Shown in pieces: positions 491-19,700 of a stretch of 22,179 nt of DNA (position 1 is its first letter; each line of letters opens with the position of its first letter). The DNA comes from a virus. The DNA lies in the IMG/VR virus record IMGVR_UViG_3300042356_001796, positions 1-22,179 of that record; one strand, written 5' to 3'. The translations under genes and the position numbers were made by a program. The notes below the pieces were generated by a model, which did no database searches, was not told where the DNA came from, and was given only the letters and a program-made list of their open reading frames with translations.

Positions 491-3400
491 ATGGCAATAA
501 GTAATCTTTTAACAGGTAGGGTAAGGGTAGTATCGCCTAAAAATGTAACATCCGATAGGTATCAATTCTTAGATTTATCTCAAGCAGAACCAAATTTAGG
601 TGTTCCTCCATTTTCAGCCTCATTATTAACCAATCCTGCTATAATAGTTTCGGATGACCAAGGTAATAGAGGATTTGCAAAAAAGTTATTTTTAGAAGAA
701 TTTAGTGGGTCTTTCTCTGGCTCATTTCAAGGAGATGGTAGCCAATTAACAAATGTACCATCTGTCATAGCTCCATTTATAGCATCTGGTTCATTTACCG
801 CATCCTTTGGTGATAATGGTTTAAATGTAAACACAAATACCGCAGTAAGTGGTAATTTGAGTATATTGGGCGACGCTAATGTTGCTGGAAATCTTTATGT
901 TAGTAAATCAATATTTGCTGACCAACTTATTGTTAATATAATTTCTTCTTCTGTAATTTATTCATCTGGTTCAAATATATTTGGTGATGAACTAACCGAT
1001 GTTCAACAATTTACAGGTTCAGTAGAAGTTAGAGATAGAATTGGTGTAAACCAAATTACAGGTTCTTCTATATCTGCATCATTTACTGGTTCATTTTTTG
1101 GAGATGGTACTAATTTATTTAATTTACCACAAGCTACAAGATTAGCAACAGGTTCTATAACAGCATCGGTATCACCTGAAGATGGGTTTAAAGTATTATC
1201 GGTTGTAAGTGGTTCAACATTTACTGGTTCTCTTTTTGTAAGTGGAAATATAAACATTCCATCTGGAAGTGGATTTTTTAGTGGAAGTGGTGAGGGGTTA
1301 TTTAACATTCCCCTTTCAGCACTTAATATTGATTCTTTAGTAGCAACTAAAATAGCTAGTGGTAGTGTGACTGCATCAGTAGCACCTGATACAGGATTAA
1401 TAGTAGTATCTAAAGAATTTGGTTCTCAATTTACTGGTTCTATTAATATAAGTGGTAGTATATCCGCATCAATGTTTACTGGTAGTGGTAGGGGATTGTT
1501 TGATATTCCACAATCAGCGCTATCAGAAGATGCAACTTTAATAGCAAGTGGTAGTGTAACTGCATCCGTAACTCCACAATTTGGATTTAGAGTAATATCC
1601 GCTGAAATTGGTTCTCAATTTACTGGGTCACTATTTGTAAGTGGAGGAAATATAAGAGTTGAGACTGGTTCATTCTTTAGTGGTAGTGGTAAGGGATTAT
1701 CTGATATCCCTCGTTCAGCATTAGCACCCGATGCGTTATTAAGTACTTTAATAATTAGTGGAAGTGTAACTGCTTCTGTAAATCCTGAATATGGTTTTAG
1801 AGTTGAATCCGCATTAAGTGGCTCTGAATTTACCGGTAGTGTTGATATTAGTGGTAGTATATCTGCATCATTATTTGTTGGAGATGGTAGTGGATTATTT
1901 AATTTACCAGCATTAACAGCAACTTTAATATCCAGTGGTTCTGCAACGGCATCAATTTCTCCCGATAGAGGTCTTTCTGTAAATACTTTTGCACAATTTG
2001 ATTTTTCTGTATCCGCATCAATGTTTAGTGGTAGTGGTAAAGGATTGTTTGATATTCCATTATCTGCATTAGCAGAACAAGTAGCACAAGCAGTAAAAAT
2101 AGCAACAGGATCTGTAACAGCATCTGTATCTCCAAATTTTGGATTTACAGTAATATCAAATGAAGTTGGTTCGCAATTTACAGGTAGTTTAAGAATATCT
2201 GGATCTGTATCAATTTCGTCTGGGTCATCATTTAGTGGTAGTGGTAAAAATCTATTTGATATACCAGAATCAGCATTATCGTTTTTCCCAAATAAAATAG
2301 TAAGTGGTAGTGTAACCGCATCTGTATTACCTGATTTTGGATTTAGAGTTGAATCTGTTTTAAAAGGTTCTGAATTTACAGGAAGTGTTAGAGTTAGCGG
2401 AAGTGTTACAATAAATACTGGTTCTTTTTTTGTAGGAGATGGTAGATTCCTTAATAATATTACTCTTGCCAATTTATCAATAGATTCAACTAAAATATTT
2501 AGTGGTAGTGTAACAGCATCTGTAAGTCCTGATGGTGGATTTGTAGTAACTTCAAAAAGTGGTTCATATTTTTCCGGCATAGTAACTGCCGTATCTGGTG
2601 AATCGTTCTTTAGCGGAAGTGGAGAAGGATTAGTTAATATTCCGGAATCTGCTTTAGCATTTCAAATTAATAAAATAACAAGCGGTTCAGCCACTGCATC
2701 AATTTCACCTGAAGCCGGATTTGTAGTTAATACATTCTCAACTATAAGTGGTAGTTTAATAGTATCATCATCTGCAATATTAATACCAACAGCTTCAATA
2801 GATACAATAATAAATGTCACTAATACAGCATCATCACTATATAATATTAATGGCGTACCAAATGCATTAATAACATTAGTAAGAGGTTTAACATATACCT
2901 TTAATGTAAATGCAGTTGGACATCCATTTTATATCAAAACAGTAAATTCAACTGGTACTGGAAATGCATATAATGATGGAGTAACTAATAATGGTGAAGA
3001 TAGTGGTACAATAATATTTGTAGTACCTGCTAATGCACCTGATACACTTTATTATAATTGCCAAAACCATTCGGCAATGGCGGGCATTATTAATGTTGTT
3101 GATGATATATATAAACCTGCACAAATTAAATTTATAGGAGAAACTTCTGTAATTGGAAATGTAACTGCATCTATGTATTCTGGTTCTGGTAGAGGTTTAT
3201 TTGATATACCACAATCATCATTATCATCTGAAGTATTTAGATTAGTAACTGGAAGTATTACTGCATCTGTAACTCCACAATTTGGATTTAAAGTAGAATC
3301 ATTGGGAAGTGGTTCTCAATTTACTGGTTCAGTTTCTATAAGTGGCTCTTTAACTGTATTATCCGGCTCTGTATTATTAAAAGAAGCAACTGGTTCATTT

Positions 3401-6400
3401 AGTGGTTCGTTTGAAGGTGATGGTAGTAGATTGAAAAATTTAACTATCCCACCAACAATATCATTTATAATAGGAAGTGGTAGCGCAACTGCATCAGCTA
3501 CACCTGATTTTGGATTTAAAGTTGTTACTGATGCAACTGGGTCTTCATTTGGTTCTAGGTTTACTGGTTCTATTGATGTTAGTGGTAGTGTACAAGCCTT
3601 TTCATTTATTGGAGATGGTTCTCAATTAACAAATGTAATTGCCGAAGCTGCAACAAAAATACTATCTGGGTCAGTTACGGCATCTGTATCTCCTAATTTT
3701 GGATTTAAAGTAGACTCATCACAAATTGGTTCTCAATTTACTGGTTCTATTAATGTTACTGGTAGTATATTCATACCAAGTGGTAGTGGGTTTTTTAGTG
3801 GTAGTGGTAAGGGATTATTTGATATACCATTATCAGCATTTACAGGAGATGCATCTAGAATAGCTAGCGGTAGTGTAACTGCATCTGTATCTCCGAATTT
3901 TGGATTTAAAGTAACATCGTTAATAAGTGGTTCTCAATTAACTGGTTCAGTAAAGGTTAGCGGGTCATTGACAGTTAGTGAATTCTTTATTGGAGATGGT
4001 AGATTTTTAACAAATGTACCTGCAGCCGAAAGTGCAAAAATAGTATCTGGGTCTGTTACGGCATCTGTATCACCCAATCGTGGGTTTTTAGTAACATCAG
4101 TAGTAAGTGGTTCTACATTTACTGGAAGTTTATTTGTAAGTGGAAATATTACAATACCATCTGGAAGTGGATTTTTTAGTGGAAGCGGTGAGGCATTATT
4201 TAATATTCCTAGGTCAGCTTTAAATGATGATGCACTAACTTCTGCAGAAATTAAATCTGGTTCAGTTACGGCATCTGTATCTCCTAATTTTGGATTTAGA
4301 GTAATATCGGCTGAAATAGGTTCTCAATTTACTGGGTCACTATTTGTAAGTGGGGGAAATATAAGAGCAGCAAGTGGTTCATTCTTTAGTGGTAGTGGTA
4401 GAGGATTATCTGATATTCCGGAATCTGCTTTATCATTTTCACCAAATAGAATTTCAAGTGGTAGTGTAACTGCATCTGTATCTCCTAATTTTGGATTTAG
4501 AGTACAATCTTCTTTAATTGGTTCTCAATTTACAGGTTCTTTATTTGTAACTGGTGGAAATATAAGAGTAGCAACTGGTTCATTTTTTAGTGGTAGTGGA
4601 GCTGGATTGAGTGATATTCCGGAATCAGCATTATCATTTAAAATTAATAGAATTGCAAGTGGTTCTGTGACGGCATCAATATCACCTGATTTTGGATTAA
4701 CAGTAAATACATTTTCTACAATTAGTGGTAGTTTTATAGCATCATCATCAGCTAGAATAATACCGGATTATGAAATAGATAAGGTATTTATTGTTACTAA
4801 TAATGAAAGTGGTAACTATAATATTAGTAATACATTAGTAAGTGGTTCAAACCCAACTTTAACTTTAGTTAGAAATGTAGAATATACGTTTAACGTTAAT
4901 GCATCTGGGCATCCGTTTTGGATTAAAGAAGTAAGTAGCATTGGTACTGGAAACTCATATGATTATTGGGTAACTAATAATGGTGAAGATGTAGGTAATA
5001 TAACATTTTTAGTTTCAGGAAGTGCACCTGATACACTTTATTATAATTGCCAATTACACTCATCAATGGCAGGCGCAATTAATGTAGTAGATGCATTATA
5101 TATACCGGCAGAAATAAAATTAATTGGTGAAACAAAAGTTGAAGGAAATGTTACCGCATCAATGTTTAGTGGTAGTGGTAAAGGATTATTTGATATACCA
5201 ATAGCAGCAATATCCGGAGATACTGTTAGAATAGCTAGTGGTAGTGTAACCGCATCTGTATCACCTGTATTTGGATTTAGAGTAGCATCATTTGATAGCG
5301 GCTCTGATTTTAGTGGAAGTATTAGAATAGATTCTTCATCTTTTATATATTCATTAGGAACTTTCTTAAGAGAAATTCCTAGAGCAGCATTGACAGAGGA
5401 TGCATTAGTATCTTCAGAAATAAAATCAGGTTCGGTAACCGCCTCCGTTAGTCCTGTTTTTGGATTTAAAGTAACAACGCCATTTACATCGTCTGTGAGT
5501 GAAAGTTATTTCTTTACGCAAATCGCATCTCAATTTACTGGTTCTATATCTGTGAGTGGAAGTGTTTATATTAATGATAATAGTGGTGGCCTATTTATAG
5601 AATCATCATCTTTTATATATGCAGTAGGTACTCATTTAAGAAATATTCCTCGTTCTGCACTAACGGATGATGCATTGATATCTACTGAAATTAAAAGTGG
5701 TAGTGTAACGGCATCGGTATCTCCTGATTTTGGATTTAAAGTTATAACCCCATTTACAGGTTCTCAAATAGGTTCTCAATTCACCGGTTCAATTGATGTT
5801 AGTGGAAGTGTAAAAGCATTTACATTTATAGGAGATGGTTCTCAATTAACCAATGTTCAAGCGGCAGCAGCACCTTTAATAGCAAGTGGTTCAGCAACAG
5901 CATCGGTTCAAAGTGGAGATACATTCATAGTAACAACCGGAGCAACCGGAAGTGGACAGGATGTACAATTTGGTTCTCGTTTTACTGGTTCTATTGATGT
6001 AAGTGGTAGTATCAAAGCTCAATTCATATTAGGTGATGGTACTTTTATAACAAACGTACAAGCAGCTGCAGCACCATTCATTGGTAGTGGTTCTGCAACG
6101 GCATCGGTTCAAAGTGGTAATAATTTTATAGTAACAACTGGAGCAACTGGTTCTGCTATTGGTTCTAGATTTACTGGTTCAATTGATGTTAGTGGTAGTA
6201 TTAGAGCATTTTCATTTAGTGGAGATGGTTCTCAATTAACAAATGTAGTAGCAGCGGCATCTCCATTGATAGCAAGTGGTTCGGCAACTGCATCTGTACA
6301 AAGTGGAATACAATTAATTGTTACAACTAAAGGTAATTTTTCACCAGTTGGTGCAAATTCTGGTTCATATTATGGTTCTGTATTTACTGGTTCTGTAATT

Positions 6401-9400
6401 ATTAGTGGTTCAATATCATCATCTCGTTATGATGGTGATGGGGGTGGATTATTTAATATCCCAGCATCAGCACTTGAAGATTTACAATTAGATAGAATAC
6501 AATCTGGTTCTGGTAGAGCAATAATAGACCCAACTAAATTAGATGTAAACGTACCAATAACAGCAGCACTTTATATAGGTGATGGTGGTGGATTATTTAA
6601 CATTCCTGCGGAAGCATTAGAAGATTTACAATTAGATAGAATCATATCAGGCTCAGTACAAGCGGTAATTTCTCCGAACAAAGGGTTGGAAGTTGGTATT
6701 AAAACGAGAATATCTGGTTCATTATCAGTTAGTGGAGCTTTGTTTATAACTGGTGGTAATGTTGTAGTAGAAAGTGGTTCAGCATATTATGGAGATGGTA
6801 GTGGATTAACAAATATTAGTATTGCAAATTTATCATTTGAAACATTTATATTAAAGAGTGGTTCTGCAACAGCATCTATTTCTCCTAATAACGGATTTGT
6901 AGTTAATACATCTTCATTCTTTTATGGAGAAATGTACGTTCAGGATAAATTAAGAGTTAGTGATGTAACTGCAAGTGGTATTATTAAATCTCAATTATTT
7001 ACCGGCTCATTCTTAGGAACTTACACATATCAAGGAAATGGACCTACGGCAAGTATTGATTATGATATTTTAAGATTTGACCCAAATAGAGGACATTATA
7101 TTCCTCAACCTGAAACCTCATTAACCGAAACGGTATCATTTAATAATGTTAGTACATTAACAATTGTACATAATTTGGGAATTAGATACCCAATGGTTCA
7201 AGTTTACGCAACTGGTTCAGAAGACCAAATTTTACCAGGTACAATAAAATCAATAGATGATGATACAATTCAAATTCTATTTAGTGGATTGACAAGTGGA
7301 CATGTAGTAATTGGAAGTGGTGGTTCTTTGATAAACGGAACAATACCAGGAGATAGAGTAATTGGTACAGTCTTATCAGCATCACATGCAGAAGTTGCAC
7401 AAGTAGCAAATTCACTTGTTGGATTTAATTCTGCATCATTAGCAGCATTGGGTGATTTGACAAATTTTGTAACAAATAATAAAACATCATCAATGGCGGT
7501 GTTTAGTGCAGTAAGTTCTTCTTACGCATTAACCGCATCATACGCATTAAATGCAGCACAAGGTAGTGGTACTGAATTATTTATATACCAAACCAGTTCA
7601 TTAGTAAAAGCACAAGTAGGAAAAATTCATTTTACTGGTTCTGGTGTTGATGTGATATCATCTGGTTCTGATGGGGTATTAGTAAGGATATTAGGTGGTG
7701 GTGGCGGCGAGGGTTTTGGTGATTTACTTAGTTCACAAACTTCTTCAATGTTAGTTGGTACTGCATCTTTAGCATTCACCGCATCATACGCTCTTTACGC
7801 TTTAAATGCGGAAGGTGTAAATACAGCATCATTCTTACAAGTAAATAAAGATAGTAATATTAACGCTAATTTAACTATTAGTGGTAGTTTAGGTGTAAGT
7901 GGTAGTGTGTTAATAAACGCACTTGTTTCTGGTTCATCGGAAGATGTGGTAGTTTGGAATAGTACAACAAAAAAATTAGAAAGAAGAAATATAGCAGGTG
8001 TACAAGGTTCATCAGGAACATCTGGAGCTAGTGGTACTGATGGTACATCGGGAACTTCTGGAATATCTGGAAGTAGTGGTTCATCTGGAAGTAGTGGTAC
8101 ATCTGGAAGTAGCGGTTCATCTGGAGTAAGTGGTACATCTGGAAGTAGCGGTTCATCCGGCTCATCCGGAAGTAGTGGTTCATCGGGAAGTAGTGGTACA
8201 TCAGGAAGTAGTGGTTCATCTGGAAGTAGTGGTACATCTGGAAGTAGCGGTTCATCCGGCTCATCCGGAAGTAGTGGTTCATCCGGAAGTAGTGGTTCAA
8301 GTGGTTCAAGTGGTACATCAGGAACTTCTGGAACTTCTGGTACATCGGGAACAACTGGTTCATCTGGAACTTCCGGAAGCAGCGGTAGCAGCGGAAGCAG
8401 CGGAAGTAGCGGAAGCAGCGGCTCAAGCGGTTCAAGTGGTTCAAGCGGTACGTCAGGAACTTCTGGAACATCAGGAACATCTGGAACATCAGGAACATCT
8501 GGAACATCAGGAACTTCTGGGAGTACGGGTTCATCTGGTTCATCGGGAAGTAGTGGTTCAAGTGGTTCATCTGGTTCATCGGGAACTTCTGGAACATCAG
8601 GAACTTCTGGTTCATCTGGAAGTAGTGGTTCAAGCGGTACTGGTGGTTCAAGCGGTTCAAGCGGAACAAGCGGAACAAGCGGAACAAGCGGAACAAGCGG
8701 AACGTCAGGTTCTTCCGGTACAGTAGGAACATCAGGAACTTCTGGAACAAGCGGTACTTCTGGAACAAGTGGTAGTGGTGGTTCGGCAGGTTCATCTGGT
8801 TCATCGGGAACTTCTGGTACATCTGGAACATCTGGTAGTAGTGGTACAGCAGGAACTTCTGGTTCAGCAGGTTTTACAGGAACTTCTGGAACAAGCGGTA
8901 CATCGGGAACTTCTGGAAGTAGTGGTACATCTGGAACAAGTGGAAGTGGAGGTTCAGCAGGAACTTCTGGAACTTCTGGTTCGGCAGGTTTATCAGGAAC
9001 TTCTGGAAGTAGCGGTACATCTGGCTCATCTGGAACAAGTGGTATATCAGGAACAAGCGGAACATCAGGAACAAGTGGAAGTAATGGAACATCTGGAACT
9101 AGCGGAAGTAGTGGTACTGCCGGTTCATCTGGTACATCTGGAAGTAGTGGTTCATCCGGAAGTAGTGGAAGTAGTGGTTCATCCGGAAGTAGCGGTACAT
9201 CAGGAAGTAGTGGTTCATCGGGAACAACTGGGTCTTCTGGTACATCAGGAACAAGCGGTACATCAGGAAGTAGTGGTACTGCAGGTTCATCCGGCTCTTC
9301 TGGGACTAGTGGTACAAGCGGAACATCTGGAACGGCTGGTACATCAGGAACTTCTGGAAGTGATGGTACATCTGGAAGTAGTGGAACAAGCGGTTCATCT

Positions 9401-11746
9401 GGCTCTTCTGGGACTAGTGGTACAAGCGGAATTGATGGTACTTCTGGAACAAGCGGTACAAGTGGTACAAGCGGCTCAAGTGGAAGTACGGGAACAAACG
9501 GAACATCGGGAAGTAGTGGAAGTAGTGGTATATCGGGAACTAGTGGTACGAGTGGAAGTAATGGTACAAGCGGTTCAAGCGGAAGTACGGGAACAGATGG
9601 TACAAGCGGAACTTCTGGTACAAGCGGAACAAGTGGAACATCGGGTACTTCTGGCACAAGCGGTAGTAATGGTACATCTGGTAGTAGTGGGTCATCAGGA
9701 AGTACGGGTTCAAGCGGAACATCAGCAGAAGGTTCATCAGGAACAAGCGGTACGAGTGGAAGTAATGGTACAAGCGGCTCAAGTGGAAGTACGGGAACGG
9801 ATGGAACAAGCGGAACTTCTGGTACAAGCGGCACCAGCGGAATAAGTGGAACATCGGGTACTTCTGGCACAAGCGGTAGTGATGGTACATCTGGAAGTAG
9901 TGGTTCATCTGGAAGTACGGGTTCAAGCGGAACATCAGCAGAAGGAACATCAGGAACAAGTGGTACATCAGGAATTTCCGGAACATCTGGAACATCTGGT
10001 ACAAGCGGAATAAGTGGAAGTGATGGAACTAGTGGTACATCTGGACAAGATGGAACATTATTTGGAAGTAGTGGTACAAGCGGAACTTCTGGGACTAGTG
10101 GAACTTCTGGTACATCAGGAACATCAGGAACATCTGGATTAGATGGAACATTATTTGGAAGTAGTGGTACATCGGGAACAAGCGGAAGTAGTGGTACTAG
10201 TGGAACATCAGGAACATCAGGTAGCACAGGTACAGATGGAACATCTGGAACAAGCGGAATAAGTGGTACGAGTGGCACAAGTGGAACATCAGGAAGCGAT
10301 GGTACATCTGGTTCATCTGGAACTTCTGGAACATCTGGAGTAAGTGGAACATCTGGAACTTCTGGACAAGATGGAACTTTATTTGGAAGTAGTGGTACAT
10401 CTGGAGAAAGTGGTACATCAGGAACTTCTGGTATAAGCGGTAGTGATGGAACAAGTGGTACATCTGGAACATCTGGATTAGATGGAACATTATTTGGAAG
10501 TAGTGGAACATCGGGAGTTAGTGGAAGTAGTGGAACATCGGGAGTTAGTGGTTCATCAGGAACTTCTGGCACAAGCGGTACATCGGGAACAAGCGGATTA
10601 GATGGAACTTTATTTGGTTCATCAGGTACATCGGGAACTTCTGGAACATCCGGAACTTCTGGAACATCAGGAACGTCTGGAGCAAGTGGTAGTAATGGTA
10701 CATCTGGTACTTCTGGACAAGATGGAACTTTATTTGGTTCATCTGGAACATCTGGAACAAGCGGAGCAAGTGGTTCATCGGGAACGTCTGGTACATCGGG
10801 AACGTCAGGAACGTCAGGTATATCTGGAACTTCTGGACAAGATGGAACTTTATTTGGAAGTAGTGGTACAAGTGGTTCAAATGGACCAGCTGGTACGCAA
10901 GGCTCAGATGGAACAAGCGGTACAAGTGGTACAAACGCACCTGGTATAACTTCTGGAACATCAGGAACTTCTGGAATAAGTGGTACTGATGGAAGTGCTG
11001 GAACTTCTGGTACAAATGCACCGGGATTTTCATCTGGAACAAGTGGTACAAGTGGTATAAGTGGTACAAATGGAAGTGGTGGAACTTCTGGTACAAATGC
11101 ACCTGGTATAACTTCTGGAACATCAGGAACTTCTGGAATAAGTGGTACTGATGGAAGTGCTGGAACTTCTGGTACAAATGCACCAGGATTTTCTTCTGGA
11201 ACAAGCGGTACAAGTGGTATAAGTGGTACAAATGGAAGTGGTGGAACTTCTGGTACAAATGCACCAGGATTTTCATCTGGAACATCAGGAACATCGGGAC
11301 TTCAATTAGTTGGTACAACTAATAATGGTTTACTTACATATATTGATTCACCTATTGGAGCGGCAGTTGAAAGTAATTTAATTTTTGATGGTACTACTTT
11401 ATCAGTAACAGGTAATGTAGCATCAACAACATATAGAGAAACATATTCTGATTTAGGAACTGGTGGTAGTGCAACATTAGACCTATCAACCGCAAATAAT
11501 TTCAGAAGACAATTTAATGGTACAGCAACACTTACATACACAAATCCACCAGCATCAAATGCATTTGGATTTACTTTAGTAGTTGTAAATGCTGGGGCTT
11601 TTTCTATAACATGGCCAGCTAGCATTGATTGGGCAGGTGGTACTGCTCCTATATTGACATCGTCTGGAGTAGATGTTTTAACATTCTATACTTATAATGC
11701 AGGTGTTACATATTATGGATTTGTAACCGGTAAAAATTTAAGTTAA
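491..11746 (+). CDS. Giant tail fibre 1: repeat shaft, two cupredoxin-like domains, collagen-like shaft, beta tip
   Basis: This is a 3751-residue predicted virion fibre. In order it shows: an N-terminal head (1-97, MAISNLLTGRVRVVSP, possibly the tail-attachment end); about 27 copies of a beta-rich unit of roughly 66 residues (98 to about 2170; core SGSVTASVSPNFGFKV, then GSQFTGS, then SGSGKGLFDIP); two cupredoxin-like insertions (about 773-871 and 1432-1534); a hinge-like domain (about 2210-2280, LTIVHNLGIRYPMVQVY); Ala/Ser segments of the SSYALTASYALNA type; a Gly-X-Y region (2506-3602); and a 148-residue tip ending YYGFVTGKNLS. There is no signal peptide or membrane segment, as expected for a phage structural protein. 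The ATG at 491 lacks a Shine-Dalgarno but is the first start after the upstream stop and begins a plausible head. It lies 7 bases before the LRR gene and is probably co-transcribed with it. Trimeric fibre is inferred from the collagen-like region and from the family habit of such proteins. Confidence 0.93.
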   Translation: MAISNLLTGRVRVVSPKNVTSDRYQFLDLSQAEPNLGVPPFSASLLTNPAIIVSDDQGNRGFAKKLFLEEFSGSFSGSFQGDGSQLTNVPSVIAPFIASGSFTASFGDNGLNVNTNTAVSGNLSILGDANVAGNLYVSKSIFADQLIVNIISSSVIYSSGSNIFGDELTDVQQFTGSVEVRDRIGVNQITGSSISASFTGSFFGDGTNLFNLPQATRLATGSITASVSPEDGFKVLSVVSGSTFTGSLFVSGNINIPSGSGFFSGSGEGLFNIPLSALNIDSLVATKIASGSVTASVAPDTGLIVVSKEFGSQFTGSINISGSISASMFTGSGRGLFDIPQSALSEDATLIASGSVTASVTPQFGFRVISAEIGSQFTGSLFVSGGNIRVETGSFFSGSGKGLSDIPRSALAPDALLSTLIISGSVTASVNPEYGFRVESALSGSEFTGSVDISGSISASLFVGDGSGLFNLPALTATLISSGSATASISPDRGLSVNTFAQFDFSVSASMFSGSGKGLFDIPLSALAEQVAQAVKIATGSVTASVSPNFGFTVISNEVGSQFTGSLRISGSVSISSGSSFSGSGKNLFDIPESALSFFPNKIVSGSVTASVLPDFGFRVESVLKGSEFTGSVRVSGSVTINTGSFFVGDGRFLNNITLANLSIDSTKIFSGSVTASVSPDGGFVVTSKSGSYFSGIVTAVSGESFFSGSGEGLVNIPESALAFQINKITSGSATASISPEAGFVVNTFSTISGSLIVSSSAILIPTASIDTIINVTNTASSLYNINGVPNALITLVRGLTYTFNVNAVGHPFYIKTVNSTGTGNAYNDGVTNNGEDSGTIIFVVPANAPDTLYYNCQNHSAMAGIINVVDDIYKPAQIKFIGETSVIGNVTASMYSGSGRGLFDIPQSSLSSEVFRLVTGSITASVTPQFGFKVESLGSGSQFTGSVSISGSLTVLSGSVLLKEATGSFSGSFEGDGSRLKNLTIPPTISFIIGSGSATASATPDFGFKVVTDATGSSFGSRFTGSIDVSGSVQAFSFIGDGSQLTNVIAEAATKILSGSVTASVSPNFGFKVDSSQIGSQFTGSINVTGSIFIPSGSGFFSGSGKGLFDIPLSAFTGDASRIASGSVTASVSPNFGFKVTSLISGSQLTGSVKVSGSLTVSEFFIGDGRFLTNVPAAESAKIVSGSVTASVSPNRGFLVTSVVSGSTFTGSLFVSGNITIPSGSGFFSGSGEALFNIPRSALNDDALTSAEIKSGSVTASVSPNFGFRVISAEIGSQFTGSLFVSGGNIRAASGSFFSGSGRGLSDIPESALSFSPNRISSGSVTASVSPNFGFRVQSSLIGSQFTGSLFVTGGNIRVATGSFFSGSGAGLSDIPESALSFKINRIASGSVTASISPDFGLTVNTFSTISGSFIASSSARIIPDYEIDKVFIVTNNESGNYNISNTLVSGSNPTLTLVRNVEYTFNVNASGHPFWIKEVSSIGTGNSYDYWVTNNGEDVGNITFLVSGSAPDTLYYNCQLHSSMAGAINVVDALYIPAEIKLIGETKVEGNVTASMFSGSGKGLFDIPIAAISGDTVRIASGSVTASVSPVFGFRVASFDSGSDFSGSIRIDSSSFIYSLGTFLREIPRAALTEDALVSSEIKSGSVTASVSPVFGFKVTTPFTSSVSESYFFTQIASQFTGSISVSGSVYINDNSGGLFIESSSFIYAVGTHLRNIPRSALTDDALISTEIKSGSVTASVSPDFGFKVITPFTGSQIGSQFTGSIDVSGSVKAFTFIGDGSQLTNVQAAAAPLIASGSATASVQSGDTFIVTTGATGSGQDVQFGSRFTGSIDVSGSIKAQFILGDGTFITNVQAAAAPFIGSGSATASVQSGNNFIVTTGATGSAIGSRFTGSIDVSGSIRAFSFSGDGSQLTNVVAAASPLIASGSATASVQSGIQLIVTTKGNFSPVGANSGSYYGSVFTGSVIISGSISSSRYDGDGGGLFNIPASALEDLQLDRIQSGSGRAIIDPTKLDVNVPITAALYIGDGGGLFNIPAEALEDLQLDRIISGSVQAVISPNKGLEVGIKTRISGSLSVSGALFITGGNVVVESGSAYYGDGSGLTNISIANLSFETFILKSGSATASISPNNGFVVNTSSFFYGEMYVQDKLRVSDVTASGIIKSQLFTGSFLGTYTYQGNGPTASIDYDILRFDPNRGHYIPQPETSLTETVSFNNVSTLTIVHNLGIRYPMVQVYATGSEDQILPGTIKSIDDDTIQILFSGLTSGHVVIGSGGSLINGTIPGDRVIGTVLSASHAEVAQVANSLVGFNSASLAALGDLTNFVTNNKTSSMAVFSAVSSSYALTASYALNAAQGSGTELFIYQTSSLVKAQVGKIHFTGSGVDVISSGSDGVLVRILGGGGGEGFGDLLSSQTSSMLVGTASLAFTASYALYALNAEGVNTASFLQVNKDSNINANLTISGSLGVSGSVLINALVSGSSEDVVVWNSTTKKLERRNIAGVQGSSGTSGASGTDGTSGTSGISGSSGSSGSSGTSGSSGSSGVSGTSGSSGSSGSSGSSGSSGSSGTSGSSGSSGSSGTSGSSGSSGSSGSSGSSGSSGSSGSSGTSGTSGTSGTSGTTGSSGTSGSSGSSGSSGSSGSSGSSGSSGSSGTSGTSGTSGTSGTSGTSGTSGTSGSTGSSGSSGSSGSSGSSGSSGTSGTSGTSGSSGSSGSSGTGGSSGSSGTSGTSGTSGTSGTSGSSGTVGTSGTSGTSGTSGTSGSGGSAGSSGSSGTSGTSGTSGSSGTAGTSGSAGFTGTSGTSGTSGTSGSSGTSGTSGSGGSAGTSGTSGSAGLSGTSGSSGTSGSSGTSGISGTSGTSGTSGSNGTSGTSGSSGTAGSSGTSGSSGSSGSSGSSGSSGSSGTSGSSGSSGTTGSSGTSGTSGTSGSSGTAGSSGSSGTSGTSGTSGTAGTSGTSGSDGTSGSSGTSGSSGSSGTSGTSGIDGTSGTSGTSGTSGSSGSTGTNGTSGSSGSSGISGTSGTSGSNGTSGSSGSTGTDGTSGTSGTSGTSGTSGTSGTSGSNGTSGSSGSSGSTGSSGTSAEGSSGTSGTSGSNGTSGSSGSTGTDGTSGTSGTSGTSGISGTSGTSGTSGSDGTSGSSGSSGSTGSSGTSAEGTSGTSGTSGISGTSGTSGTSGISGSDGTSGTSGQDGTLFGSSGTSGTSGTSGTSGTSGTSGTSGLDGTLFGSSGTSGTSGSSGTSGTSGTSGSTGTDGTSGTSGISGTSGTSGTSGSDGTSGSSGTSGTSGVSGTSGTSGQDGTLFGSSGTSGESGTSGTSGISGSDGTSGTSGTSGLDGTLFGSSGTSGVSGSSGTSGVSGSSGTSGTSGTSGTSGLDGTLFGSSGTSGTSGTSGTSGTSGTSGASGSNGTSGTSGQDGTLFGSSGTSGTSGASGSSGTSGTSGTSGTSGISGTSGQDGTLFGSSGTSGSNGPAGTQGSDGTSGTSGTNAPGITSGTSGTSGISGTDGSAGTSGTNAPGFSSGTSGTSGISGTNGSGGTSGTNAPGITSGTSGTSGISGTDGSAGTSGTNAPGFSSGTSGTSGISGTNGSGGTSGTNAPGFSSGTSGTSGLQLVGTTNNGLLTYIDSPIGAAVESNLIFDGTTLSVTGNVASTTYRETYSDLGTGGSATLDLSTANNFRRQFNGTATLTYTNPPASNAFGFTLVVVNAGAFSITWPASIDWAGGTAPILTSSGVDVLTFYTYNAGVTYYGFVTGKNLS
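2807..3103 (+). other. Cupredoxin-like domain 1 inside the fibre shaft
   Basis: Residues about 773-871 of giant fibre 1 break the shaft repeat. They read as a small beta sandwich: IINVTNTASSLYNI, then LVRGLTYTFNVNAVGHPFYI, then TNNGEDSGTIIFVVP, and finally APDTLYYNCQNHSAMAG. The potential copper ligands are His811, Cys857, His860 and Met863. The 46-residue gap from the first His to Cys, and the Cys-x2-His spacing, match the plastocyanin/pseudoazurin pattern. The last spacing, His-x2-Met, is two residues shorter than the usual His-x4-Met, so the axial ligand is uncertain. Fold assignment is by motif. Whether metal is bound, and why, is unknown. Confidence 0.72.
4784..5092 (+). other. Cupredoxin-like domain 2 inside the fibre shaft
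   Basis: This is the second copy, residues about 1432-1534, with the same ligand layout: His1474 (in NASGHPFWI), Cys1520, His1523 and Met1526 (in YYNCQLHSSMAG). The His-to-Cys distance is again 46 residues. Compared with copy 1 it has a 4-residue longer loop before the strand LTLVRNVEYTFNV. Otherwise it shares TGTGN, VTNNGED, APDTLYYNCQ and INVVD. Conservation of all four candidate ligands in two diverged copies argues that they matter. The surrounding shaft units are also duplicated. Confidence 0.72.
7117..7340 (+). other. Beta domain linking the repeat shaft to the collagen-like shaft
   Basis: Residues about 2210-2284 read TETVSFNNVSTLTIVHNLG, then RYPMVQVYATGSED, then a strand IKSIDDDTIQILFSG and SGHVVIGSGG. 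Domains of this pattern (a His-Asn-Leu turn, then R-(Y/F)-P-x-V-x-VY) are common in phage tail fibres and usually sit between a shaft and a distal part. After it come Ala-rich pieces of the SSYALTASYALNA type and a linker EDVVVWNSTTKKL just before the first Gly-X-Y triplet. The role as a hinge or trimerisation element is inferred. Confidence 0.55.
8006..11299 (+). repeat. Collagen-like Gly-X-Y region of giant fibre 1 (about 1100 residues)
   Basis: Residues 2506-3603 are almost entirely Gly-X-Y triplets, mostly G-T-S and G-S-S, with occasional D, N, A, I, V or Q in X or Y. Proline is nearly absent: it occurs only in NGPAG and in the NAPG units near the end. The register is broken by recurrent elements: seven copies of DGTLFGSSG between 10050 and 10870, two GTSAEG (near 9720 and 9940), and five NAPG. 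By family knowledge such regions form triple helices in phage fibres. If fully helical at the usual rise of about 0.29 nm per residue this would span roughly 0.3 micrometre (inference). Serine codons from both TCN and AGY families are mixed, and locally AGC-rich patches occur near 8375-8440. Confidence 0.95.
10934..11282 (+). repeat. 81-bp tandem array at the end of the collagen-like region
   Basis: The codon for Asn of NAPG recurs at 10934, 11015, 11096, 11177 and 11258, exactly 81 bases (27 residues) apart. Units alternate between an NAPGITSG/GTDGSAG type and an NAPGFSSG/GTNGSGG type, so the true period is a 162-bp double unit followed by a partial copy. Near identity at the DNA level points to recent duplication. 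The proline-containing breaks may mark the transition from the triple helix to the tip. Confidence 0.92.
11300..11743 (+). other. C-terminal tip domain of giant fibre 1
   Basis: Residues 3604-3751 start with LQLVGTTNNGLLTYI and FDGTTLSVTGN, a post-collagen module also found in giant fibre 2. The end is a compact beta-rich domain: ATLDLSTANNFRRQFNGTAT, then FGFTLVVVNAGAFSITWPA, DWAGGTAP, and DVLTFYTYNAGVTYYGFV. Ends of this pattern (W-P, W-x-GG-x-x-P, D-V-x-T-F-x-T, W/Y-Y-GF) are frequent at the distal ends of phage fibres, where receptor contact is expected. Receptor binding is inferred; the ligand is unknown. Confidence 0.6.
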
Positions 11747-13795: not shown

Positions 13796-16700
13796 ATGGA
13801 GTTTAACGGTAAAAGTCCTAATGGTTTAAATCAGACTAGTGTAGATAGTGTATCACTTTTTGTGAGCGGAGCATCTATATTAAATGCTTCATCAGAATCG
13901 GTAAATGTTGTAGGAAACTTTACTGCTTCTAAAATACAAACGGATGAAATCGATTCATTTGGTACTAATCCGTTACAAATAAAAGCAAACACACAAATTA
14001 GTGGGTCGGCCAACATTTCATCATCAATATCAGCATCTTTATTTAGAGGAGATGGTGGTGGATTATTTAATATTAGTGCAACAGCTCTTGGAGATTTAGA
14101 TAGATTAAAATCAGGTTCAGCAACAGCAATAATTTCTCCAAATAAAGGATTAGTAGTAAATACTGATTTAACTGTAGCTGGAAAAATAAATACAACTGAA
14201 TTATTTGCAACATATATATCATCATCAATAATCTACGCAAGTGGAAGTAACAAATTCGGTGATGCACAAAATGATAAGCAAGAATTTACTGGAAGTGTAG
14301 GAATTACTGGTTCATTGTTTATAGCAGGATTATCAGCAGATGCATCAAATGAAGTTTTAGTTATTAATGCAACAACTGGAAAAATAGGAACTAAATTTGC
14401 AGCAGCATCATCAGGAACATCTGGTACATCAGGAACATCTGGTACATCAGGAACTAGTGGAACTTCTGGAAGTACAGGTTCATCAGGAACTTCTGGTAGT
14501 AGTGGAACATCAGGAACTTCTGGAACTAGTGGAACATCTGGAAGTAGTGGCTCATCGGGAACTTCCGGAACATCAGGCTCAGCTGGAACATCAGGCTCAT
14601 CTGGAACTTCTGGAACTCGTGGCACATCTGGAACATCAGGCACAAGTGGTAGTAGTGGAACAAGCGGTTCATCAGGAACTTCTGGTACAAGTGGTACAAG
14701 TGGTAGTAGTGGTACATCTGGGGTAAGTGGTACATCAGGAACTTCTGGAATAAGTGGCACAAGTGGAACATCTGGAAGTAGTGGTACATCGGGAACTTCT
14801 GGTACTTCGGGAATATCTGGAAGTAGTGGTAAAGATGGAACTTCCGGAACATCAGGAATAAGTGGTTCAGCTGGAAGTAGTGGAACATCGGGAACTTCTG
14901 GTACAAGTGGTACATCAGGAGTAAGTGGTACATCGGGAATATCTGGTTCATCTGGTACATCTGGAATAAGTGGAACAAATGGAAGTGCTGGTACATCGGG
15001 AATATCTGGTTCAAGCGGTTCATCAGGAACTTCTGGTACATCGGGAACTTCTGGAACTTCTGGAACTTCTGGTACATCCGGTTTAACAGGAGCTGGTGGA
15101 GGTTCTGGTACTGCAGGAAGTGGTGGTTCATCTGGAAGTAGTGGTACAAGCGGTACAAGTGGAACATCAGGAACTTCTGGTACATCAGGAACTACGGCAA
15201 CGGCTGGAAGTGGAGGTACTGCTGGTACTGCAGGAACTTCGGGAACATCCGGTACATCGGGAACTTCTGGTAGTACGGGTTCATCAGGAACTTCTGGTAC
15301 AAGTGGTTCATCGGGAACTTCTGGTACATCAGGAACAAGTGGAGCAACAGGTTCTACGGGTAGCGCAGGTTCATCGGGAATTAGCGGAACATCTGGCACA
15401 AGCGGAACATCTGGCACAAGTGGAACATCGGGAACATCTGGTACATCAGGAGTAAGTGGTTCAGCTGGAAGTAGTGGAACATCAGGAACATCTGGTACAT
15501 CAGGAGTAAGTGGTTCGGCTGGTACATCAGGAGTAAGTGGCTCAGCTGGAAGTAGTGGAACATCGGGAACATCTGGTACATCAGGAGTAAGTGGTTCAGC
15601 TGGAAGTAGTGGAACATCAGGAACATCTGGTACATCAGGAACATCTGGAACAAGCGGTTCTGCTGGTAGTGGTGGTTCATCGGGAACGTCTGGTACATCA
15701 GGAACTTCTGGTACAAGCGGTTCTGCTGGTAGTGGTGGTACAGCCGGTACATCGGGAACTTCTGGAACTTCTGGTACAAGCGGTTCATCGGGAACTTCTG
15801 GAACATCAGGAACAAGCGGTTCATCGGGAACATCTGGAAGTAGTGGCACATCAGGAACTTCTGGTACAATGGGAACTGCTGGTAGTGGTGGTTCTTCAGG
15901 AACTTCTGGAACAAGCGGAACATCTGGAAGTAGTGGAACATCTGGAACATCTGGCACAAGTGGGTCATCTGGAACTTCAGGAACTTCTGGTACATCCGGA
16001 ACAAGTGGTTCATCGGGAACTTCTGGTACAAGTGGTACATCAGGAACATCTGGTAGTGGTGGTACATCTGGTACATCTGGTTTATTAGCATTAACTGGTA
16101 CAACAAATAATGGTGTAATCACATTAAATGGGACAGCTCCTAACGGAACTGTTGAAGCAAATTTAACTTTTGATGGTACTACATTAACTGTAACTGGTAA
16201 CGCTACAATTAGTGGTGACCTTACTGTAAGTGGTACAACAACATATATTAATACAACAACTCTTAACATAGGTGATAATATTATTACACTTAACGCAGAT
16301 ATTGGAGCAGGAACTGCACCAACTCAAAACGCAGGTATTGAAGTTAAGAGAGGCTCATCCGCAACAAAAGCATTTTATTGGGATGAAGCAGCTGATAGAT
16401 GGTATGCTGAAGATGGACTTTATGTAGCAGGTAATGTAGTTCTTAGTGGAACTATTGATACTGGTATAGGAGCAACTGAGGTTTATTTAATGGACCAAAA
16501 TGTTAGAACAACAGATTCTCCTACATTTGGAACACTTAATATAACAAACGCTTCAAACGCAATAAATTTCAGTAATACATCTGAAGCTATATTAGAGCAT
16601 ACTGGAAATTCTACACCTGTTGCATTTGATATGAGAAAGGGTGGAACTTCATTTAGTGATGATGGTGGGTATGGTACATTGCACTTAACAAGAACAAACC

Positions 16701-19700
16701 ATAATAACTCCGCAACATCAGTAGGTTCTAATTTACATTTTAGATTAAAGGATAGTGGTGGTACGATACAAGAGTATGCTGGTATTGGTGGTAGAAAAAC
16801 TGAAGCTGGTGCAGCTGGAGGCGCATTATATTTTTATCGTTATAATAGAACTGTATTAGGATATTGGGATGCAAACGGATTATATGCATCAACTTTTTAT
16901 GATTATGATAACTCAGCTTATTATTTAAATCCTGCTAGTACATCTAACTTAAATGCTTTAGTAGCAGGTGGTACAAATAACGGAGCAGTAATTTTCTATC
17001 GTTCATCAAATCCATATTCAATTGGAGGAACTGATGCAGTATTAACTGTTTCCGATAGAAGTGGTGCTGACTGGGGTATTTTTGTTGATAAGACTGGATT
17101 TGATTATGGTATTTATACAACTGTAGCATCTGGCGCTACTTATGCACTTGCTGTTAATAATGGTAGTAGTTGGGTATGGAGAGTAGATGGAGCTGGTATA
17201 TTATATTCAAATAGTATATATGCACCACTTTATTATGATAGTGATAACTCAGCATATTATTCAAACCCTGCAGGCAATTCCAATTTAAACGAACTTACAA
17301 CAAACGGAATATTTACGGCATATGGTACTGGTGCACCATTTATGAAATGGCAAAATACGGCAGCAGCTGGATATCTATTATTAGGATTATACAACGACCA
17401 GGGAACACAAAGAGTTTGGTTTGGTTTAGGTGGGAGAACGCAAACATTTGGTTCATATGCAGCATATTCACAGGATGGTTTATCTATGAATTTAGATGGA
17501 GCTGGTGCAATTAATATATCAAATAGAGGTACATCTAAAAGAATTAATTTAAATACAGGAGCAGAAGGTAGTTCTAATTTTACAACATTAAGAATAGATA
17601 ATCAGGGTGTTTATGTAACTCCGGATTCATTAACTGGTGGTATGTATTCACCAATTTATTATGATTCAAACGATACGAATTTTTATTTAGACCCAAATAG
17701 TACGTCTAGAGTAAATTCACTTCAAGCTAGAAACTTAGGTGGTGCAACTCTTAACATTGTAAGTACTGATGTTGGTGTGAACGCTACATTAGAAGCAATA
17801 ACATTTATAGATAATTCAATTGTTCAAGCGCATGCATCAACTGGTAACGGTAATTCTTCAAATTGTTATAACTGGTACACTACTGAATTAATTGATATAA
17901 ATCCTGAAAAGGATTACGAATTTAGTGTTTGGGTAAGAAGTACAGGTAATGATAACTTATATGTAGGTTGGTATGAGCAAGATGTAAATGGAACTACACT
18001 TACATCAAATCCTTACTTTCATACTAACCCAATAAATACCGGTGGAACTTGGATTAAACTTACGCATAAATTAAAAAGTTGGAGAACTCCTTCTGGACAA
18101 GCAAATTCAAATGGTGTTGATAGATATGCATCATCAACATCAACATTGGTTGATATTACTAACACAAACGCAGATGGTGTAATGCACTCAAATGCAAGAA
18201 GAGTGCACTTAAGATTTGGTACCTGTTATGGTAGTGTAAATGGTAGTAAAACATATTTCTATTTACCTGCAGTTAGAGAAGCATCTTATCAGGATGTTCA
18301 ACAACAAATAATAATACCTTATTATAATGGTAGTTCATATGGTGGAAAATTAAGATTTGGATATAACGATTGGGGTTATTTTGGAATTGGTATGTATGGT
18401 GCTGCTGGAGAATTCCGTATGAGTTCTGATACTGGTGATTTAAACTTAAGAGTAGATGGTTGGGTGATTGCACACAATTCTATGCAAACTCCAATACTTT
18501 ATGATTTGGACAATACAGCATTTAGAATAGATGGTAATGGTACATCTCGTTTGACAACCCTAACTACCGATGGATATATGGCAGTTGGTATGACTGATAC
18601 AACTGGATATATGAGTGGTACTAGAGGAGTATCAATATATCATTCAGCAAATCCAGCAGTAGGATTCCGTAACGATAGTAGATACCATTTATGGTATGCT
18701 AGTGGTAACAATATGGTCCTATGGAATAATGTTTATGGTGATGTAATGAGAGTTATCAACAACTATACGGAAATGGTTGGTTCGGCAAGAGCACCTATTT
18801 TCTATGATTTGGATAATACTGCATATTATGTAGACCCAACTGGTACTACTAATATAAGCATTCTTAATATGAATAATCGTATCATCACAAATAGAAATAC
18901 AATCTATTTAGCAGGTGATAATGATTACAACCACGCAATTGGTAACTCATTACAAACATTCAATGGTTCAGCTGATGGTGAAACTTTCTATGGTTGGCAT
19001 TTTATAAACTTGCATGCTAGACAAGTTGGTAGGTCTGGTTTATTAATGCGTGAAAATGGATACATTGGTATAAATAATATTACAAATCCTCAATATGGAT
19101 TGCATACATCTGGAACATCGTATTCTGATGGTGATAAGAGAGCACCTATATTTTATGATTCAAATGATACAACATACTATATTGACCCTAATACAACTGG
19201 TGTATCTGTAAGAGTAGCTGGGCAAATTTGGTCTGGACAATCTAATAGTAGAAGTGGTGATATTGGTTTGGTATTAAATGATGGTTCTGTATTAGTAAGA
19301 GCAAGTGGTGATAACTATCATAAAATGTGGTACTATGATGGTATTGCATTTGGAACTAACAGTGCACATGGACACTTCCGTTTTTATGGTGAAACTAATA
19401 CTCAAAGAAATAATAGTACTGGTGGTGCAAATTTATGGTTTGATATAAACGCAACAAATGGTGTGGCAATATCATATGGTGATATGAGAGCACCTATTTT
19501 TTATGACCAAAATAATACGGGATATTATGTAAATCCTGATGGTACAACAAACCTTGTTTATTTAGTTGTTGCAAACGGAAACTCTATTCAACATAATGCA
19601 TATAATAACAATGGTTCATATATGATGAACAACGCATCTACCTATTGGGGTATGATGAGTAACGTATCTACAAATGACTGGAGATTAGGATATGGTGGAG

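Follow-up and report, generated by a model that had tools for sequence, protein, structure and literature searches.

Amicyanin (NCBIfam TIGR02657; PDB 1aac) is a free periplasmic electron carrier whose copper ligands are His53, Cys92, His95, and Met98 (PMC12723479). Rusticyanin, in which Ser follows the first His ligand (PMC12723479), and AcoP are respiratory proteins of acid-loving iron oxidisers, and the three-domain copper nitrite reductases (PDB 2dv6 and 6tfo) are enzymes with a second copper centre. For tail fibres, the nearest published idea is that of iron held by paired histidines: the HxH sites of T4 gp37 and phage R22Y, to which an ecological hypothesis is attached, consist of octahedral iron bound by six His between three chains (PMC11705849). 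Here we describe two cupredoxin-like domains in a 3,751-residue tail fibre of an aquatic phage, encoded by IMG/VR virus record IMGVR_UViG_3300042356_001796 (22,179 bases, analysed whole and referred to as the window). Their complete His-Cys-His-Met sets, which are retained or lost together among homologues, point to a selected metal site on the phage tail.

Each window domain has the same C-x2-H-x2-M loop as amicyanin (PMC12723479), and the His-x2-Met spacing, which an initial annotation of this DNA had regarded as shorter than usual, is therefore also that of a known copper protein. Unlike amicyanin, the domains are part of a fibre and have Pro after the first His, where amicyanin has Asn and rusticyanin Ser. 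Rusticyanin and AcoP are the closest solved single-domain folds (Foldseek 4e-5), though about 18–20% identical, and the N-terminal domain of the nitrite reductases gives the best VIA-align Z, although the fibre domains lack a catalytic partner domain. Like the HxH fibres, the window fibre appears to have metal sites, but its site contains Cys and lies within one domain. No HxH motif was found in the window fibre: none of its ten His residues lie two apart, and those of the domains follow the pattern His...Cys-x2-His. Among phage proteins, the C-terminal domain of T4-like cyanophage gp9 (PHROG 677) belongs to the same family and, in the genomes sampled, has the same four ligands; it is a single domain at the end of a baseplate protein of about 410 residues, whereas the window fibre has two copies inserted in its shaft.

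Fold and ligand sets of the fibre domains

The two domains and their ligand residues are located in the window as follows.

2810..3103, + strand: cupredoxin domain 1, residues 774-871 (hidden Markov model (HMM) boundaries; AlphaFold model of residues 762-883; PDB matches)
2921..2923, + strand: codon of His811, first ligand, in a GHPF motif (sequence; lost jointly with the other ligands in homologues)
3059..3079, + strand: ligand loop Cys857-x2-His860-x2-Met863 (the family profile aligns the loop on amicyanin and nitrite reductase ligands)
4787..5092, + strand: cupredoxin domain 2, residues 1433-1534 (HMM boundaries; AlphaFold model of residues 1421-1546; PDB matches)
4910..4912, + strand: codon of His1474, first ligand of domain 2 (sequence)
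5048..5068, + strand: ligand loop Cys1520-x2-His1523-x2-Met1526 (sequence)

The region singled out by the initial annotation, 2807-5092, begins one codon ahead of domain 1 and ends on the last codon of domain 2, and the eight ligand residues it named (H811, C857, H860, and M863; H1474, C1520, H1523, and M1526) are all present at those numbers. In both copies the His-to-Cys spacing is 46, followed by C-x2-H-x2-M, and both conform to the type-1 copper pattern His...Cys-x(2-4)-His-x(2-5)-Met. The ligand sets had been called near-complete; they are present as claimed, but complete. Both copies retain all four ligands despite their divergence (60% identity over 126 aligned positions). C857 and C1520, which occupy the predicted ligand position in their respective domains, are the only cysteines of the fibre; the naive probability that both would fall on homologous ligand positions is ~1e-7. 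Across the family, the His-to-Cys spacing is mostly 43 or 46 (293 members with both motifs), and 283 of 285 members have the C-x2-H-x2-M loop.

AlphaFold2, run with an alignment of the phage's own relatives, produced high-confidence models of domain 1 (mean predicted local distance difference test score (pLDDT) 95.0, predicted template modelling score (pTM) 0.85) and domain 2 (mean pLDDT 93.9, pTM 0.86); the models are mainly strand and show eight or nine beta strands. Foldseek against the PDB placed cupredoxins on top (AcoP at 4.3e-5 and rusticyanin at 4.5e-5, followed by nitrite reductase, multicopper oxidases, and plastocyanin). VIA-align gave Z of 10.2 and 11.1 to the nitrite reductase N-terminal domain (root-mean-square deviation (rmsd) 4.6–4.9 Å with 100–104 residues aligned; 4.2–4.9 Å across 2dv6 and 6tfo) and 10.0 and 9.5 to rusticyanin (rmsd 2.3–2.5 Å, 95–96 aligned), and the fold matches also include amicyanin. 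These predicted models agree with the cupredoxin fold proposed in the initial annotation and would place both copies in the cupredoxin superfamily (a Greek-key beta sandwich of about eight strands), with the topology taken from the fold matches and the strand count.

A family profile was needed to connect the domains to solved copper proteins by sequence. A PDB sequence search with a single window domain returned no match, and a profile of the first 38 family sequences returned marginal PDB matches only. A profile of 24 diverse liganded members retrieved nitrite reductases (4e-5), amicyanin (E 5e-4, over 83 positions of the PDB chain), and plastocyanin (1e-3) from the PDB, along with auracyanin, pseudoazurin, azurin, and rusticyanin; among the alignments listed, the Cys, His, and Met of the family fall on the copper ligands of amicyanin and nitrite reductase. 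The best scores of family members were 1.7e-6 for NCBIfam amicyanin and 1.8e-6 for Pfam Copper-bind, and 8 of the 24 diverse members match TIGR02657. Window domain 1 itself had no NCBIfam match and so falls short of the TIGR02657 cut-off. Its sole Pfam match is PF25489 (At5g54830-like domain; E 0.0012), at 19.2 bits, below the gathering cut-off of 27; 14 of the 24 members match this family weakly, and membership cannot be claimed for the window domain. The PHROG 677 profile matched with E 4.6e-24 over positions 303-411 of 412, that is, over the C-terminal domain only of an otherwise different protein. Nitrosocyanin was not among the fold matches listed, and no search aimed at it was made.

Short "beta-sandwich proteins" of giant viruses (Pithovirus and Marseillevirus LCPAC/LCMAC; BFVD A0A481Z6J5, A0A481Z7Q7, and A0A481YVH3) also match the domain-1 model structurally.

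Joint retention and loss of the ligands

We compared the ligand columns across 353 distinct homologous domains, some of them from overlapping loci, which form 205 clusters at 80% identity. All four ligands are present in 173 clusters (84%); some queries were ligand-less copies, which inflates the proportion of losses but cannot create joint loss. The remaining clusters retain Met alone (18), no ligand (6), the first His alone (2), the first His and Met (2), or Cys and Met (2), or have lost only Met (2). In none of the 205 has Cys been lost with the loop His kept. Where ligands are missing they have been replaced by varied residues (Ser, Asn, Gln, and Tyr), and the remaining fold pattern is retained. 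In a second clustering (210 clusters, slightly different columns), 666 pairs of conserved columns were ranked by joint loss, and the top three were those among the first His, Cys, and the loop His (phi 0.96, 0.92, and 0.88; median 0.02). Met, the fourth residue in 95% of clusters, is less tightly coupled to the other ligands, as expected of an axial ligand.

A tree built in FastTree with both ligand segments removed gave the same picture when changes were counted on all 417 branches, which are estimates from a short alignment. Of 10 Cys losses, 9 share a branch with loss of the loop His and 6 with loss of the first His, whereas 25 control columns share only 0–4 branches with Cys loss. When restricted to supported branches, an independent-pairs test lacked enough events to reach significance, although no supported pair among Cys, the first His, and the loop His pointed the opposite way. 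Of 40 distinct fibres of the same shaft type, 39 have one cysteine for each liganded domain and no more, including those in which one copy is site-less.

Because loss is joint and the Cys count tracks the liganded domains, we interpret the ligand set as a selected metal site: these sequence data fit a site that is kept or discarded whole, and misfit drift or a motif that merely stabilises the fold. The argument against drift made in the initial annotation gains from this comparison, since drift would strip ligands singly; nor are the ligands freely replaced in homologues.

A clade of 17 tips (L076:3395-8512 and relatives) consists of fibres with several adjacent ligand-less cupredoxin-like domains, a copper-less branch of the family.

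Possible roles of the site in the virion

Since the residues that would hold the metal have been kept or discarded together in evolution, the tails of these virions probably bear copper (or another metal). We favour, with moderate confidence, the reading that both domains are genuine cupredoxins whose His-Cys-His-Met sites are complete and of type-1 style, acting as metal-locked, stable decoration domains on the tail. The fibre would fold in its apo form inside the reducing cytoplasm and would acquire its metal, copper or another soft one (or zinc), at assembly or after release into the water. The metal would then tie the strands of the sandwich together and shield the cysteine from oxidation, and the stable domain could project from the shaft and face the host surface. 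Tail fibres are usually trimers; if this one is, two copies per chain would give six sites per fibre. We place this reading first because the ligand-less copies show that the domain is useful without metal: copies without a site keep the fold, and the metal may be an added stabiliser or tuner in most copies. In azurin, copper changes the route of mechanical unfolding and keeps about 1 nm of chain sequestered (PMC5792602; see also PMC4532836). By analogy, altered unfolding is a plausible benefit for a fibre domain pulled during adsorption, and a lone Cys in an oxidising environment would also gain protection from the metal.

Several points tell against this reading. The same ligand-less copies mean that the metal is not essential to the domain, and Pro after the first His suggests that the site may be other than the classical blue one. 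That the ligands meet at one point in the structure is a geometry drawn from profile alignment and, indirectly, from joint loss, and stabilisation is a benefit we infer.

The copper might instead be the point in itself, with redox-active or exchangeable virion copper meeting copper or electron-transfer proteins at the host surface; in variants of this idea the copper would be a Trojan horse like that suggested for iron, or would be taken up for the next infection. The existing hypothesis of iron in fibres (PMC11705849) makes such a role conceivable, as do the complete type-1 set with amicyanin spacing, the electron carriers and copper enzymes that are the nearest solved folds, and cellular relatives that are exported and come from aquatic bacteria. 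We nevertheless consider it rather unlikely, given that no partner protein or electron path is known, that the domain is located in the shaft (in a baseplate connector in the case of cyanophages), and that several fibres hold copies without the site.

The identity of the metal is a separate matter, as the clusters, pair ranks, and tree are blind to it and would look the same for a structural metal such as zinc. Little free copper is available in the cytoplasm, where phage proteins are synthesised, and cupredoxins produced in E. coli are known to acquire zinc. Both the prevalence of Met as the fourth residue and the amicyanin-type loop point to copper, however, and extracellular water could supply it after release, making a non-copper metal distinctly unlikely. 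It is more doubtful still that no metal is bound and that the His/Cys/His/Met cluster is conserved as the tip with which an adhesion domain binds protein or glycan, in the manner of ephrins, whose cupredoxin fold holds no copper. Adhesion is the role of many phage fibre domains, and ligand-less paralogues persist in such fibres, but the joint loss of sequence-distant residues to varied ones resembles loss of a metal site, and Cys is avoided elsewhere in the fibre. Finally, the existence of ligand-less paralogues does little for the suggestion that the ligands are a structural relic of a cellular ancestor and no longer matter, which is refuted for the two window copies by their complete sets at 60% identity, the exclusion of Cys elsewhere, and joint rather than one-by-one loss (with all four ligands kept in most clusters), and which we hold to be extremely improbable overall.

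Among openly licensed papers, we found none relevant that joins a cupredoxin with a tail fibre, cyanophage tail, or virion. The literature on plastocyanin and phages concerns petE photosynthesis genes, and a paper on viral nirK in oxygen-minimum zones deals with a separate gene. The fold and site are thus known, and their use in a virion is undescribed as far as this literature shows, though automatic superfamily annotation elsewhere may well have assigned such phage proteins to the cupredoxins. As a virion cofactor, a selected, Cys-containing site of the copper type, present in fibres and in baseplate proteins of cyanophages, would be of a new kind, and it cautions against reading "plastocyanin-like" phage genes as photosynthesis or nitrogen-cycle genes. 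On a wider scale, it is possible, though doubtful, that a large proportion of tailed phages in aquatic habitats, T4-like cyanophages among them, have virions that are copper metalloproteins. Each particle would then have tens of type-1 sites on fibres and baseplates, loaded after release and acting at the cell surface (through redox, receptor engagement, or copper piracy), and phage particles would contribute to the copper that natural waters hold in dissolved, protein-bound form.

Relatives, fibre gene and neighbourhood

The presence of the domain in a fibre, which the initial annotation found unexpected, is confirmed and is wider than was thought, since the same domain is common in cyanophage tails. 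One domain matched 179 IMG/VR stretches (at least 572 with degenerate patterns), and the family occurs in 347 of 50,697 phage records, mostly cyanophages. In sampled T4-like cyanophages the domain is the C-terminus of gp9 ("baseplate wedge tail fibre connector"), with all four ligands present; gp9 of P-SSM4, S-ShM2, Syn10, and S-RIM2 bears it. Members were also found in two Prochlorococcus podoviruses and in fibres with collagen-like shafts. The cyanophage baseplate gene directly after gp9 (L215, L219, L221, L224-L229, and L234) likewise encodes cupredoxin-like domains, one with a longer His-to-Cys spacing and the same C-x2-H-x2-M loop (e.g., CKYHRHMSGY), plus apparent ligand-less copies. A gene of cyanophage S-SCSM2R annotated as PetE (plastocyanin; L230:1740-2246), which adjoins a peptidase S8 gene, belongs to the same tail-domain family (HPF...CTIHGSM), and phage "petE" calls may in part be this family.

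Cellular relatives were found at 54 loci, up to about 60% identical, mostly in aquatic bacteria (Flavobacteriaceae, Marivirga, myxobacteria, PS1/OCS116 alphaproteobacteria, and Neomarinimicrobiota). Several have a lipoprotein-like N-terminus with the domain at the C-terminus, and judging from these sequences they appear to be exported proteins. The marine Flavobacteriaceae relatives (L084, L086, L087, L093, L094, and others) have this arrangement; the one examined, L087, contains repeated PF03640 units ("secreted repeat of unknown function"), which may link the PF03640 family to copper or electron transfer.

The fibre gene and its other features are located as follows.

491..11746, + strand: long tail-fibre protein of 3,751 aa bearing both cupredoxin domains (open frame, shaft repeats, collagen-like region, gene context in a related contig)
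1332..6910, + strand: shaft repeats (family D1), 20 copies of an 80-nt core, interrupted by both domains (repeat spacing jumps at the domains)
7997..11299, + strand: collagen-like Gly-Thr/Ser-Ser/Gly region, residues 2503-3603 (about 1,100) (Pfam Collagen, 12 stretches; limits read from sequence)

An artefactual open frame was considered and ruled out by 3,751 codons with fibre repeats and homologues. As the initial annotation held, the domains are built into the shaft: around them the repeat spacing is mostly 171–228 nt, and it jumps to 567 nt (2655 to 3222) exactly at domain 1 and to 579 nt (4632 to 5211) at domain 2, so that each domain adds about 125 residues to the shaft unit that it interrupts. 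Because the flanks of the two insertion places are also alike (repeat families D11 and D12, 75–78% DNA identity), the sequence suggests a duplication that included the domain along with its shaft unit. The collagen-like region lies downstream of both domains within the same protein.

Beside the fibre gene lie those for a tail assembly chaperone (Phage_tail_APC) and for another long fibre, which has a Peptidase_S74 chaperone. One contig of 19,426 bases is 99.99% identical to the window, and a related 43.6-kb contig has the same gene set beside tail sheath and tail tube genes, which adjoin the same fibre gene; the virus is therefore most likely a contractile-tailed phage. The second giant fibre (13796-22177) is cut off by the window edge; it contains a collagen-like region and, near residue 2709, a Peptidase_S74 intramolecular chaperone. 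Minus-strand open frames at 7795-10572 (925 aa) and 14233-16269 (678 aa) face GTS/GSS repeats and are most likely repeat-codon artefacts, not genes.

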